In this document: positions 11,034-15,614 of the stretch, piece by piece
How the letters are laid out: every line of letters starts with the position of its first letter
How positions within the stretch are numbered: the first letter of the stretch is position 1
Assembly (NCBI GenBank): GCA_947651395.1
Contig: CANSYW010000021.1
Span: 1-32,748, forward strand
Direction: 5' to 3'
Length of the DNA stretch: 32,748 bases
Source of the DNA: an uncultured Pseudoflavonifractor sp.
Lineage (GTDB): Bacteria; Bacillota; Clostridia; Oscillospirales; Oscillospiraceae
Position numbers and translations under genes: made by a program
The notes under the pieces: model-generated
Told to the model about the DNA's origin: nothing
What the model saw: only the letters and a program-made list of their open reading frames with translations
Database searches by the model: none

Positions 11034-12539
11034 ATGAGAAAAATCACCCGTTGGCTCACCGTTCTGGGCCTTACCGTGGCCCTGGTGGGCTGCGGCAGCG
11101 CGATGGCGGCGGAGGAGAGCGTCATCAGGGTCCAGCTGGACGGCCGGGAGCTGACCTTCACCGACGCCGTGCCTCAGGTACAAAGCGAGCGCACCTTCCT
11201 GCCCTTCCGGGCCGTCTTTGAGGCCCTGGGGGCCCAGGTGGACTGGGACGCCGACACCGGCGCCATCTCCGCTGCCCGGGACGGCAGGACCGTCACCATG
11301 CTCCCCGGCTCCACAGAGGCCTCTGTGGAGGATGGCGGTGTGACCACCGCCATCCAAATGGGCGTGGCCCCCTATGCCGCCGCCGATGAGGCGGGGGTGT
11401 GGCGCACCTATGTGCCCGTCCGTTTTGCCGCCCAGGCCTTCGGCTGTGCCGTGGGCTGGGATCAGGGGGCGTCCACCGTGCTCCTGGTGGACGCCGACAG
11501 GCTCCTGAAGGAGGCCATGGAGGGGAAGAGCTACACCTATCTGGACAAGCTGTGCGCTTACGGTGAGAAGTATAACGAGGGGATCTGGAACGCCGAATTC
11601 ACCATGGACGGCTCCATGACCATGCTGGGGGCCGTCATGCCCCTGAACGCCGCCGCCGACATGATCATGGAGGGCGGAGCGAAGGTGGAGATGGACATGA
11701 ACATGAAGCTGGACATGACCCAGCTGGGCGCCCTCGTGTCCGCCATGTCCCAGACCCCTCTGGAGGCCGAGGATCAGGCCATGTTCGAGCTGATGAAGAA
11801 CGAGGGCTTCCGCATTGCCGCCCGGGGGGATCTGGCCCAGGGGAAGCTTTACATGAACATGAGCGGCAAGCTCTTCGAGGAGGCGTTTGCCGGCGAGCTC
11901 ACCCCTGAGGAGAAGGCGGAGATGCCCTTCGAGATGAAGGATCTGTGGTTCTCCATGGACATGGCCGATCTGGCGGAGGAGTCCGGCATGGACTGGGTCG
12001 GGCTGATGAAGGCATTCAAGAGCGTTGCGGGAGAGGACTATGCCCGGGAGTATGCACGGCTGTTCCTGGCCGGACTGACCCTGAACGCCGCCTCCAACGA
12101 GGGGGAGGGGATCTCCTACGAGGTCTACAGGGACTCGGTGGAGAGCCTGGCCCTGGCCTTCTCCGATGAGGGCTTCAGCAAAGAGGGGGACATCTATACC
12201 GCCTTTGTGGACGGCGGGCTCCAGAAGATGGAGCTGAGCCTCACCATGGACAAGGAGACGGTGACAGGCTACGGCATGGTGCTGAACAACCAGGTGTCCC
12301 AGCAGGGCATGGTCATGGGGATGATCATCGACACGGCGGTGACCGGGGACGAGATGACCGCCGTGATCACCGTGGACGCCGCCGGGCTCATCAGCGCGGA
12401 GCTGACCATGGAGGGGAGCTACGCCCCCGGCGAGACCGCTCCCGCCACTCAGCCGCCCGAGGGGGCCACGGTGTTGGATCTGACCCAGATGGTGAACACC
12501 CCCGGGGTAGGGGAATTGAGCCTTTCCGCTGAGGAGTAA
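11034..12539 (+). CDS. Lipoprotein with copper-amine-oxidase N-terminal-type stalk repeats
   Basis: The 501-residue protein has a signal sequence whose LVGC matches a lipobox (Cys19); cleavage after AMA is an alternative, so it is exported and probably membrane-anchored. Residues 30-150 hold two half-repeats of the copper amine oxidase N-terminal (stalk) domain: RTFLPFRAVFEALGAQVDWD and RTYVPVRFAAQAFGCAVGWD. In Firmicutes this domain is common in surface proteins without any oxidase. The rest (150-490) is not a family I recognise. It is rich in methionine and acidic residues, with repeated beta-like stretches such as MDGSMTM and MDMNMKLDM, reminiscent of lipid-binding lipoprotein folds. AGGAGG precedes the ATG. 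The gene is transcribed alone. No catalytic residues can be claimed. Confidence 0.8.
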   Translation: MRKITRWLTVLGLTVALVGCGSAMAAEESVIRVQLDGRELTFTDAVPQVQSERTFLPFRAVFEALGAQVDWDADTGAISAARDGRTVTMLPGSTEASVEDGGVTTAIQMGVAPYAAADEAGVWRTYVPVRFAAQAFGCAVGWDQGASTVLLVDADRLLKEAMEGKSYTYLDKLCAYGEKYNEGIWNAEFTMDGSMTMLGAVMPLNAAADMIMEGGAKVEMDMNMKLDMTQLGALVSAMSQTPLEAEDQAMFELMKNEGFRIAARGDLAQGKLYMNMSGKLFEEAFAGELTPEEKAEMPFEMKDLWFSMDMADLAEESGMDWVGLMKAFKSVAGEDYAREYARLFLAGLTLNAASNEGEGISYEVYRDSVESLALAFSDEGFSKEGDIYTAFVDGGLQKMELSLTMDKETVTGYGMVLNNQVSQQGMVMGMIIDTAVTGDEMTAVITVDAAGLISAELTMEGSYAPGETAPATQPPEGATVLDLTQMVNTPGVGELSLSAEE

Positions 12540-12574
12540 GGGCCTGTCCTCCTGTGCCCTTTCAAAATTTCCTA

Positions 12575-12603
12575 TTGACAGATGGACCCACCGGTGGTAA
12601 TAT
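12575..12603 (+). promoter_or_regulatory. Promoter of the methionine transporter operon
   Basis: A perfect TTGACA (12575-12580) lies 17 bases before TAATAT (12598-12603). An overlapping TATAAC at 12601-12606 is a less well-spaced alternative -10. Transcription would start near 12610, just before the leader ribosome binding site. Confidence 0.75.
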
Positions 12604-12638
12604 AACGAAAAATCACTCAGGAAGGAGGCGCGTTGAAA

Positions 12639-12731
12639 ATGACTCACGGTTATGGCATGATGATGGGTATGATGGACATGGCGATGATGCCGATGCCCAC
12701 GCTTTTGCGCGCCTCCACACAAAAATTCTGA
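12639..12731 (+). CDS. Methionine-rich leader peptide of the metNIQ operon
   Basis: A 30-codon reading frame follows AAGGAGG (12622-12628). Ten of its 30 codons are ATG, nine of them between codons 7 and 19 (MMMGMMDMAMMPM). The ATG at 12639 is 10 bases from the ribosome site, and an in-frame TTG two codons earlier is an alternative start. The stop TGA (12729-12731) is followed by an intrinsic terminator and then metN. This is the layout of amino-acid leader peptides such as TrpL, HisL and PheL, in which ribosome stalling at codons for the scarce amino acid prevents termination. The predicted role is sensing of charged methionyl-tRNA to control methionine import. A copper-binding peptide is a less likely reading, because the downstream genes are for methionine. 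Confidence 0.8.
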   Translation: MTHGYGMMMGMMDMAMMPMPTLLRASTQKF

Positions 12732-12757
12732 GAATACCGGCCTTGGGCCGATTTCTG

Positions 12758-12797
12758 AGAATGGGAAGCGCGTAGGCGCTTCCCATTCTTGTTTTTT
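12758..12797 (+). terminator. Intrinsic terminator between leader peptide and metN
   Basis: AGAATGGGAAGCGC (12758-12771) pairs perfectly over 14 bp with 12776-12789 around the loop GTAG. T-G and six T (12792-12797) follow. It lies upstream of metN inside the operon, as an attenuator does. Confidence 0.95.
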
Positions 12798-12818
12798 GAG
12801 CGGAAAGAGGGTATGACC

Positions 12819-13889
12819 ATGATAAAGCTGGAACAGGTGAGCAAGACCTTCGGCAGCGAGAGCGCCGGCGTCCACGCGGTCCGGGACGTGTCGCTCCACA
12901 TCGCGCCCGGGGAGATCTTCGGCATCATCGGCTACTCCGGGGCGGGCAAGTCCACTCTGGTGCGCTGTATCAACCTGCTGGAGGAGCCCACCGCCGGAAA
13001 GGTGACGGTGGACGGTCAGGTGCTGACAGACAGACCCGTGGCCGGGCCGGGGGAGCTTCAAAGGGCCTTTCGAATGCCCCCAGCCCAGCTGCGCCAGGCC
13101 CGGAAGAAGATCGGCATGATCTTTCAGCAGTTCAATCTGATGCCCTCCCGCACCGTGGCCGGGAATGTGGCCTTTCCCCTGAGGGGGAGCGGCCTTTCCG
13201 GGGAGGCCGTGACCGCCAAGGTCAAAGAGCTTCTGGAGCTGGTGGGTCTGCCGGACAAGGCGGAAGCCTATCCCGCCCAGCTCTCCGGCGGCCAGAAGCA
13301 GCGGGTGGCCATCGCCCGGGCCCTGGCCAGCGAGCCGAAGGTGCTCTTGTGCGACGAGGCCACCTCCGCCCTGGATCCCCAGACCACCCAGTCCATCCTC
13401 CGGCTCATCAAGGACATCAACCGAAAGACGGGGATCACGGTGGTCATCATCACCCATGAGATGGCGGTGGTGAAGGAGATCTGTCATCGGGTGGCCGTGA
13501 TGGAGGCGGGCTGTGTGGTGGAGGAGGGCAGCGTCTACGACGTGTTCTCCAACCCCAGGCAGCCGGTGACCCGTTCCTTTATCGCCACCACCTCCAATCT
13601 GGGGAAGATCCGGGAGCTGATCGACGCCGGGGATCCCATGGTGGAGCTGGAGTCCGGCCAGATCATTGCCCGACTCAACTATGGCCGGGGCAACGTGGGA
13701 GAGGCTACCATCTCCCAGATTTCCCGGAAGTTTGACGTGGACGTGAGTATCCTCTACAGTAATGTGGAGATCCTGAGCAGTCAGCCCCTGGGCGGGCTGG
13801 TGGCCCGGCTCAGCGGCGACAGGGTCTCTGAGGCTGTGAATTATCTGAGCGAACGAAACGTGGTGGTGGAGGTGTTGAAGCGTGGCTGA
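12819..13889 (+). CDS. metN: Methionine ABC transporter ATP-binding protein MetN
   Basis: From ATG 12819 (AGAGGG 7 bases upstream) the protein has 356 residues; ATG 12813 is an alternative start, and the longer TTG frame from 12789 overlaps the terminator and is rejected. The Walker A motif GYSGAGKST is at 38-46, the Q-loop at MIFQQFN, the signature at LSGGQKQR and Walker B at VLLCDEATSALD. The last 75 residues form a NIL domain, the ligand-binding regulatory domain of MetN through which methionine inhibits transport. A 15-20 residue insertion (around VAGPGELQRAF) precedes the Q-loop compared with typical MetN. It energises uptake of methionine through MetI. metI overlaps its end by 8 bases. 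Confidence 0.95.
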   Translation: MIKLEQVSKTFGSESAGVHAVRDVSLHIAPGEIFGIIGYSGAGKSTLVRCINLLEEPTAGKVTVDGQVLTDRPVAGPGELQRAFRMPPAQLRQARKKIGMIFQQFNLMPSRTVAGNVAFPLRGSGLSGEAVTAKVKELLELVGLPDKAEAYPAQLSGGQKQRVAIARALASEPKVLLCDEATSALDPQTTQSILRLIKDINRKTGITVVIITHEMAVVKEICHRVAVMEAGCVVEEGSVYDVFSNPRQPVTRSFIATTSNLGKIRELIDAGDPMVELESGQIIARLNYGRGNVGEATISQISRKFDVDVSILYSNVEILSSQPLGGLVARLSGDRVSEAVNYLSERNVVVEVLKRG

Positions 13890-14562
13890 GCTTTTGAATG
13901 TGATCATGCCCAACGTGGTGGAACGCTCCGGCCAGTTCTGGCAGGCCTTTGGGGAGACCCTTCAGATGGTGGGCATTGTGGGGGTGCTGGCGGTGCTCAT
14001 CGGCATTCCCTTCGGCGTGCTCCTCTTTGCCACCAAGCCTGACGGGATCCTGAAGAGCCGCCCCATCCACTTTGTCCTCAATAAGATCTGCGACATTTTC
14101 CGCTCCATCCCCTTCATTTTGCTGGCCGTGATCCTGATGATGCTCAGCCGCCTCATCGTAGGCACCGCCATCGGAGTCAAGGGCGCCATCATCCCGCTGA
14201 CCGTGGCCACGGTGCCCTTTCTGGGCCGGCAGATCGAAGGGGCTCTCTCGGAGGTGCCCTCCGGACTTCTGGAGGCGGCCCAGGCCATGGGCTGCTCTCC
14301 CTGGGAGATCATCTGGCGGGTCTATCTGAAAGAGGCCATCCCCGGCATCGCCCGGGGGGTCACCATCACCCTGATCTCTCTGATCAACTTCACCGCCATT
14401 GCCGGCGCCGTGGGCGCGGGAGGTCTGGGCAACTTCGCCATCTCCTACGGCCACAGCCGGGGGCTTGCGGATATCATGTGGACGGTACTGCTGATCATCA
14501 TCGTTATGGTGAGCGTCGTCCAGGCTGTCGGCAACCTGGTGGTACGGAAGACCACCCATTAA
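13882..14562 (+). CDS. metI: Methionine ABC transporter permease MetI
   Basis: The 226-residue protein has five or six hydrophobic segments and the permease coupling motif EAAQAMGCSPWEIIWRV (about 130-146), which contacts MetN. SINFTAIAGAVGAGGLG-type residues near 173-188 are characteristic of MetI. It forms the membrane channel of the methionine importer as a dimer. The start is GTG at 13882, overlapping the end of metN by 8 bases, with GGAGGTG upstream, so the two are translationally coupled. It is followed by metQ after about 100 bases. Confidence 0.95.
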   Translation: MAELLNVIMPNVVERSGQFWQAFGETLQMVGIVGVLAVLIGIPFGVLLFATKPDGILKSRPIHFVLNKICDIFRSIPFILLAVILMMLSRLIVGTAIGVKGAIIPLTVATVPFLGRQIEGALSEVPSGLLEAAQAMGCSPWEIIWRVYLKEAIPGIARGVTITLISLINFTAIAGAVGAGGLGNFAISYGHSRGLADIMWTVLLIIIVMVSVVQAVGNLVVRKTTH

Positions 14563-14662: not shown

Positions 14663-15547
14663 ATGAAAAAGAAGAATATCATCGCCCTGACTCTGTCCGC
14701 CGCCCTGACCCTCAGCCTGCTCACCGCCTGCGGCGGGGGGGCCGCGACCACTCCCGCTCCTGCGGAGAGCAAGGCCGCCGAGGAGACCGCCCCCGTGGAG
14801 ACCCCCGCCGCCGAGACCACCGTGGTCACCGTGGGCGTGGTGGGCGCCAACAACGACCAGTGGGACACCGTCAACGAGCTGCTGAAGGCGGAGAACATCC
14901 AGGTGAAGATCGTGGAGTTTTCCGAGTACAAGCTGCCCAACGATGCCCTGAACGCCGGGGAGATCGACCTCAACGCCTTCCAGCACAAGGCCTATCTCAA
15001 CAACGAGGTGGAGAAGTACGGCTATAAGGTCTCCGTGCTGGGCGACACCATCATTGCCCCTCTGAGCCTGTATTCGGAGAAGGTGGGAAGCGTCAGCGAG
15101 CTCAAGGAGGGGGACAAGATCGCCGTGCCCCAGGATCCCACCAACGAGGGCCGCTGCTTTAAGATCCTGGAGGCCCAGGGCGTGCTGAAGGTGGATCCCG
15201 CCGCCGGGTATATGCCCGAGCTCAAGGACATCACCGACAACCCCCTGAAGCTGGAGTTCGTTGAGGTGGAGGCCGCCAACACCGCCAGCCTGCTGCCCGA
15301 CGTGGCCGGCTCCTTCATCAACGGCGCCCACGCCTCCGACCACGGCCTCACCCCCGAGGACGCCATCTGCACCGAGACTGTGGAGCCGGGCAGCGACAAC
15401 CCCTACATCAACATCATTGCCTGCCGCACCGACGACCTTCAGAACGAGACCTATCTGAAGGTGCTGGCCGCCTACCAGTCCGCCGAGACCGCCCAGGCCA
15501 TCAAGGACATCTACAAGGGGCTGTACATCCCCGCCTTTGAGTATTAA
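14663..15547 (+). CDS. metQ: Methionine-binding lipoprotein MetQ
   Basis: From ATG 14663 (AGGAGG upstream) the protein has 294 residues. The lipobox LTAC gives acylated Cys23. The mature part is a NlpA/MetQ-type binding protein, with VTVGVVGANNDQWD at the first strand, LNAGEIDLNAFQHKAYL near residue 100, IAVPQDPTNEGRCFKIL and the hinge region VEAANTASLLPDVAGSFINGAHA. It captures L-methionine (some members D-methionine or Met-peptides) outside the membrane and delivers it to MetI. The frame is open 28 codons upstream but without signal-peptide character. A hairpin follows the gene. Confidence 0.95.
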   Translation: MKKKNIIALTLSAALTLSLLTACGGGAATTPAPAESKAAEETAPVETPAAETTVVTVGVVGANNDQWDTVNELLKAENIQVKIVEFSEYKLPNDALNAGEIDLNAFQHKAYLNNEVEKYGYKVSVLGDTIIAPLSLYSEKVGSVSELKEGDKIAVPQDPTNEGRCFKILEAQGVLKVDPAAGYMPELKDITDNPLKLEFVEVEAANTASLLPDVAGSFINGAHASDHGLTPEDAICTETVEPGSDNPYINIIACRTDDLQNETYLKVLAAYQSAETAQAIKDIYKGLYIPAFEY

Positions 15548-15557
15548 AAAAGAAGAT

Positions 15558-15587
15558 AAAGAGGTGGGCCCCCGGCCCACCTCTTTT
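15558..15587 (+). terminator. Hairpin terminator between metQ and the amidohydrolase gene
   Basis: AAAGAGGTGGGCC (15558-15570) pairs perfectly with 15574-15586 around CCC; only TTTT follows. The short U-tract suggests partial termination that lowers expression of the next gene. Confidence 0.75.
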
Positions 15588-15614
15588 CCCACCGGTTAAA
15601 AAGGAGGTTCCACC

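Follow-up and report, generated by a model that had tools for sequence, protein, structure and literature searches.

We find a promoter-like site, a Shine-Dalgarno (SD) sequence, a methionine-rich ORF and an intrinsic terminator upstream of the methionine importer operon metNIQ of an uncultured Pseudoflavonifractor sp., and these elements are conserved in related genomes. The leader is a real and conserved feature and, judged from its sequence, very probably a methionine leader-peptide attenuator. More specifically, we consider it highly likely that it acts as a transcription attenuator specific for methionine, in the form of charged elongator tRNA-Met.

The metNIQ leader

The leader ORF lies at 12639-12731 of the window (the whole stretch of DNA analysed, 32,748 nucleotides; all features given here are on the forward strand) and consists of 30 codons followed by TGA at 12729-12731 (MTHGYGMMMGMMDMAMMPMPTLLRASTQKF). 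Ten of its codons are ATG, and nine of these fall within 13 codons (12657-12695), which we take, on the basis of simulation and conservation, to be the putative regulatory codons. When all six frames were searched, the richest other 13-codon stretch in the 32.7-kb window had 5 ATG, which was also the maximum in 180 windows simulated with Markov models (60 for each of orders 1-3), where it was reached in 3/180; the methionine richness of the leader ORF is therefore not due to chance. An SD sequence, AAGGAGG (12622-12628), is located 10 nt 5' of the ATG at 12639. We prefer this ATG over an alternative TTG start two codons upstream (12633) because the TTG is absent from 12/15 aligned rows of the genus.

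The ORF is preceded by a sigma-70-type promoter-like site at 12575-12603, composed of TTGACA (12575-12580), a 17-nt spacer and TAATAT (12598-12603), and is followed by an intrinsic terminator at 12756-12797, in which a stem-loop (12756-12791) of 14-16 bp, according to how its ends are counted, is formed by segment 3 (12756-12771) and segment 4 (12776-12791) and runs into TTTTTT (12792-12797). A weaker second promoter-like match (9/12 positions) lies inside the leader ORF at 12633-12661, and the promoter scan of the window reported no such site between the terminator and metN. The leader has three features of a leader-peptide attenuator: a short ORF whose translation is predicted from its ribosome-binding site near the predicted transcript start, more codons for methionine, which the operon serves, than expected, and an intrinsic terminator between the ORF and the first gene.

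Downstream, the best NCBIfam models of the three genes score below their curated cut-offs yet above the other models listed. For metN, the importer ATPase (12819-13889, with an alternative ATG start at 12813), this is TIGR02314 MetN with 384 bits against an equivalog cut-off of 499.7 and 218 bits for the runner-up model; for the permease metI (13882-14562), NF008049 MetI with 195 bits (cut-off 212); and for the substrate-binding lipoprotein metQ (14663-15547), NF008285 MetQ with 191 bits (cut-off 374) and TIGR00363 with 181 bits (cut-off 228.85). The initial annotation had described a ribosome-bound 30-codon ORF with ten ATG codons, nine of them in 13 codons, between a good promoter and a 14-bp terminator and ahead of a methionine importer; all of these elements are found as claimed, with ribosome binding represented by the SD in the sequence and the importer genes by models below their cut-offs.

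The same annotation recognised neither a SAM riboswitch nor a Met T-box, and Rfam scans agree. No family attains its gathering score in the window, and a lax scan of 12500-12850 returned just two sRNA matches (E 0.21 and 0.52), both far below their gathering scores. In the absence of a covariance-model match, the S-box (RF00162 and relatives), the T-box (RF00230) and other Rfam RNAs are ruled out for the window leader. We also considered whether the leader ORF belongs to a named protein family: the window peptide matches none in NCBIfam, and among seven other leaders there were just two sub-threshold matches, which we judged to be noise.

The surroundings of the operon can be briefly described. 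An amidohydrolase gene (TIGR01891; 15615-16802) follows metQ beyond a terminator-like hairpin near 15560-15590, and a similar gene also trails the operon in two other loci (L274 and L030). Upstream, the ORF at 11034-12539 is lipoprotein-like and has no NCBIfam match above cut-off; some relatives in the genus have Met-rich stretches in an ORF that ends where this one ends.

Conservation within the genus

We find metN in 15/16 genomes of the genus, and at all 15 of these loci it is preceded by the leader ORF with its terminator and, upstream of the leader, by TTGACA; the SD core GAGG is invariant in 15/15 rows. A leader profile search gave one strong match in each of 16/16 genomes (E of at most 2.9e-13; the next match had 0.028) and no strong second leader of the genus type in any of the 16, which ties the leader to the metN operon. 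The missing metN of the 16th genome is explained by the position of its leader, 53 bases from a contig end. A search of the genome contigs for an exact 35-base pattern gave 0 matches.

Within the Met cluster, eight ATG positions are kept in 16/16 rows and the ninth in 6/16, while neighboring codons vary, partly synonymously. The synonymous/nonsynonymous comparison that had been suggested as a test of the leader reveals constraint, with pN/pS = 0.23 over a 17-codon core (120 pairs). The C-terminal residues of the leader drift, and one genome (L013) has a frame-changing indel, as expected if the final codons act mainly as RNA. The terminator covaries, with two-sided changes at 3/12 pairs. The number of such pairs alone is ordinary (89/500 shuffles as high), and the number of alignment cells with a two-sided change, 11 against 3.5 in shuffles, was equalled in 0/500.

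A proposed attenuation mechanism

The predicted switch depends on segment 2 (CGCGCCTCC; 12708-12716), which lies within the end of the ORF and can pair either with segment 1 (GGAGGCGCG; 12624-12632), which includes the leader SD and pairs with segment 2 in the folds, or with segment 3, where its partner in the terminator 5' arm is GGGAAGCGCG in the window and in the genus. In the folds, a central hairpin (12726-12760) begins at the stop codon and sits inside the antiterminator. We propose that transcription starts near 12610 and that, behind the RNA polymerase, a ribosome begins to translate the leader ORF. When methionine is plentiful, the ribosome would pass through the cluster of nine Met codons, reach the stop (12729) and cover segment 2, the terminator at 12756-12797 would form and metNIQ would be off. 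A shortage of Met-tRNA would stall the ribosome in the Met cluster and leave segment 2 free to pair with the terminator 5' arm, so that RNA polymerase would read into metNIQ. Without translation of the leader, segment 2 would pair with the SD in segment 1, the terminator would form and the operon would be off.

Predicted RNA structures are consistent with these states. The leader fold (12605-12800) is more stable than 200/200 dinucleotide shuffles (z -5.4). For nascent RNA ending at 12775, with the ribosome assumed to cover 15 nt back and 16 forward and folding restricted to the RNA downstream of it, we obtained the expected state in all four settings: the SD helix (1:2) without a ribosome, the antiterminator with the ribosome at codon 9, a shorter antiterminator with the ribosome at codon 19, and neither helix with the ribosome at the stop. 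In full-length folds the terminator is present in every state, and the switch must therefore be kinetic.

Across the 15 rows of the genus, helix 1:2 is paired in 94% of cells and helix 2:3 in 93%, compared with 20-75% when the helices are slid. Helix 1:2 has no two-sided change and neither helix has real covariation within the genus, where changes are too few; covariation thus failed as proof of the switch helices, which are conserved without it. We also compared complementarity with shuffles in 32 leaders, 11 of the 15 in the genus and 21 others. At p<0.05, helix 1:2 stands out in 4/11 genus rows and 4/21 others, and helix 2:3 in 1/11 and 3/21; Fisher values for this comparison count related rows as if they were independent, and we give them no weight. 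The clearest antiterminators are those of L044 and L049, in which the ORF end bears a near-copy of the terminator 3' arm (for helix 2:3, p is 0.003 in both, as low as 300 shuffles allow). L024 and L025 have no 2:3 pairing in this test. These two leaders, with MMM in 15 and 11 codons, share a similar hairpin between stop and terminator in a different RNA layout.

Leaders, T-boxes and SAM riboswitches beyond the genus

Met-rich leaders are also found outside the genus. Among 47 metN loci of the family and order (L023-L069; best ~30 matches per search), 20 have one: thirteen leaders ahead of metN have a 13-codon stretch with at least 5 Met, four others, each followed by a terminator, are shorter or less dense in Met (L024, L025, L027, L043), and three precede metQ (L030, L058 (= L298), L067 (= L297)). 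In 15 extra loci chosen from the family and order lists (L300-L314), four have a leader (L300, L306, L311, L313). More distantly, leaders precede metN, with MetN as the best NCBIfam model, in a Peptostreptococcaceae MAG (L093), a Christensenella MAG (L095), Slackia piriformis (L096) and Lacrimispora celerecrescens (L099), and a leader precedes metQ in Oscillibacter sp. ER4 (L087). Where metQ leads the operon and its identity was checked, the leader is found before metQ (L030, L087, L297, L298, L300, L306); the leader therefore tracks the head of the operon and not metN. Outside the genus, the peptides are dissimilar except for their Met runs. A terminator follows 32/32 leaders tested (11 of the genus and 21 others), its 5' arm beginning 6-59 nt past the stop (that of L096 is weak), and among eight leaders found later and tested for terminators only, it is convincing in 7/8; the exception is L306.

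Several counts define the extent of this distribution. A Met-dense ORF is present at none of 27 phylum-level loci parsed of 29, two of the 27 having little upstream DNA. In a scan of named genomes we found one in 4/75 among the matches listed (at least 80), and since many of these matches are other ABC ATPases, 4/75 is not a rate for metN. Matches in the viral contig scan are ABC ATPases. Loci without a parsable Walker motif (L214, L222, L090, L102, L104, L131, L144) were dropped from the upstream Met-density count, three others in it have short upstream DNA (L234, L241, L128), and L031, with 5 Met, was excluded from the leader count. On a MetN tree of 116 rows built by a quick method, four changes of the leader label suffice versus ten in shuffles, counted among 46 labelled rows with the 70 unlabelled rows set aside and L067 labelled leaderless though its leader was found later. 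On this tree the leader is clustered in clades yet patchy.

Other RNA sensors occupy the same position in relatives. A T-box stands at the operon head in 4/47 of L023-L069, namely L032, L055 (= L284), L061 (= L289) and L068 (= L292), with scores of 83-92 bits for L284, L289 and L292, under the Rfam gathering score of 93. Another is found at the head of a related met transporter operon (L070), and five of L300-L314 have a T-box before metN (L301, L302 and L304 above the gathering score, L307 and L310 below it). At phylum level, a SAM riboswitch precedes metN in 10/20 loci scanned and a T-box in one. None of the leader-bearing loci scanned has a T-box or S-box, and at 23/47 of L023-L069, some of them cut by contig ends, we recognised neither leader nor T-box. 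The initial annotation had called for a comparative search and named homologous operons without the ORF as counter-evidence. The search is mostly favorable, in that 15/15 loci of the genus keep the ORF and Met-rich leaders with terminators occur elsewhere; operons lacking the ORF do exist, some with a T-box or SAM riboswitch instead and others with no recognised element.

The lineage is not short of these RNAs, as genomes of the genus possess both S-box and T-box, with 6 to 14 T-box matches per genome at E up to 0.001. In the window's own genome (an assembly 78.5% complete), the one SAM riboswitch match (L272; G000:C3:111906-112000) precedes not metN but a gene that, from its opening sequence, we take to be metK. 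The leader peptide is thus used for the importer despite the presence of other sensors.

Relatives' leaders differ from that of the window in the residues between their Met codons. We compared 26 diverse leaders from other genera and families (L023-L049, L087-L099, L297-L311; near-copies L033, L050 and L313 left out). Their Met clusters hold 134 residues other than Met, 26% of which are Cys, and MC or CM occurs in 22/26 leaders, which suggests that sulphur amino acids may be read in relatives. The 15 non-leader Met-dense ORFs in control tiles have no Cys in their Met runs. One extension, compatible with methionine attenuation as the best explanation, is that these leaders sense both methionine and cysteine while the window's own senses methionine only. 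We regard it as possible but doubtful: the clusters of the window's genus contain no Cys, and the enrichment, for which Met-dense control ORFs are the comparison, may also be a trait of leaders of other operons or have RNA-level causes.

Alternative explanations

A very unlikely reading is that the nascent Met-rich chain itself arrests the ribosome, through a ligand (SAM or methionine, for example) or its own sequence, and that empty Met codons play no part. In the genus, the D, A and P residues that surround the Met codons vary little or not at all, so the peptide itself could matter, and an MP pair occurs in 10/26 diverse leaders. However, diverse leaders have little in common beyond Met (and Cys), the Met run of two of them, 11 and 15 residues long, is just MMM, and a stall upon plenty would, in the present layout, induce the importer at the wrong moment. 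The lack of peptide conservation between genera also speaks against another reading, in which the ORF encodes a functional Met-rich small protein (metal-binding, for example) on a short transcript of its own that ends at an ordinary terminator, and metN has a separate promoter. Met-rich motifs can bind copper, and the terminator is strong; nevertheless, given that the leader tracks the operon head, that a T-box or S-box replaces it in relatives and that the promoter scan listed no candidate site in the gap from terminator to metN, we assign this reading a very slight probability. Met-dense short ORFs do arise elsewhere, in 17/2110 control tiles (the ORFs of two, L030 and L087, being true leaders), and ATGATGATG occurs 72 times in the window's own genome versus 4 for the reversed pattern; other-type Met-rich leaders before further genes of this genome are possible. 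Yet it is scarcely credible that the Met-rich ORF arose by chance next to a terminator that has nothing to do with it, as this is contradicted by the simulation, the profile matches across the genus, the terminators after leaders, the invariant Met positions and pN/pS.

Methionine attenuation, by comparison, is supported by Met density, genus-wide conservation, terminators, position at the operon head, replacement by T-box or S-box, and the folds. It is weakened by switch helices without real covariation, by the weak performance of helix 2:3 against shuffles, by the loci in the family and order where neither leader nor T-box was recognised, by the unconvincing terminator of L306, by the promoter-like match inside the ORF, by the terminator that forms in every full-length fold, by a segment 1 that lies upstream of the stalled ribosome and by the conserved D, A and P residues.

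Comparison with known systems

Leader-peptide attenuation is textbook knowledge for several amino acids, with trpL, hisL, pheL, thrL and ilvL as examples. The window leader shares with these a short ORF with many codons for the amino acid of its operon and an intrinsic terminator before the first gene, and the end of its ORF is predicted to overlap one arm of an antiterminator. It differs in its methionine specificity, in governing a transport operon, and in that the protector strand is the leader's own SD, upstream of the regulatory codons and not among them. In trpL, segment 1 lies under the stalled ribosome; in the window it would lie upstream. In Firmicutes, S-box, T-box or repressors are credited with methionine control, and we know of no solid case of methionine leader-peptide attenuation. 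Methionine is very probably a new specificity of this known mechanism, as far as sequence can tell.

The initial annotation knew of no well-described methionine example. Our literature search, which covered few subscription journals, also found no solid case, and the one Met leader that it found described is the weak predicted metL before metNIQ in Streptomyces lividans (available part of PMC8079986). According to that part of the report, metL resembles the window leader as a predicted methionine leader peptide ahead of the same operon, and differs in that its 29 residues contain three Met with the start counted and no run of Met codons, in its leaderless start and in the lack of a typical Rho-independent terminator; that part gives no comparative test. 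In the accessible portion of an Actinobacteria survey, methionine operons are described as having no conserved RNA structure upstream (PMC1262725). Leader-peptide attenuation as such is described in Firmicutes, with other specificities and other genes, in the available text on hisS/hisZ of bacilli (His; PMC2965389) and on the leucine-responsive BCAA operon of S. aureus (PMC5794164).

Met T-boxes of the Lactococcus lactis met transporter operon (PMC7058034) and of Staphylococcus aureus metICFE-mdh (PMC3771891), as presented in the accessible parts of these papers, likewise respond to tRNA-Met charging and govern a terminator before methionine genes. They bind tRNA directly, with a preference for the initiator in S. 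aureus according to the same part of PMC3771891, whereas the window leader would use elongator tRNA-Met via translation. The SAM riboswitch (S-box, RF00162) occupies the same place before metN at phylum-level loci and differs in that it senses SAM and involves no ORF. Based on these comparisons, we tentatively suggest, as a possibility that falls somewhat short of an even chance, a widespread undescribed class of sulphur-amino-acid attenuators. In this class, Met-counting leaders, reading Met and Cys in most lineages outside the genus, would control metNIQ or metQNI across Clostridia and perhaps in the coriobacterium Slackia, would, in repeated exchanges at this operon, have replaced or been replaced by Met T-boxes and SAM riboswitches, and would read elongator tRNA-Met where the staphylococcal T-box reads the initiator. 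The window leader provides a candidate example of Met attenuation with good comparative support. With it, the same importer would be under three RNA sensors in related bacteria, acting through SAM, tRNA binding or translation, so that cost, speed and the choice of initiator versus elongator tRNA become directly comparable.
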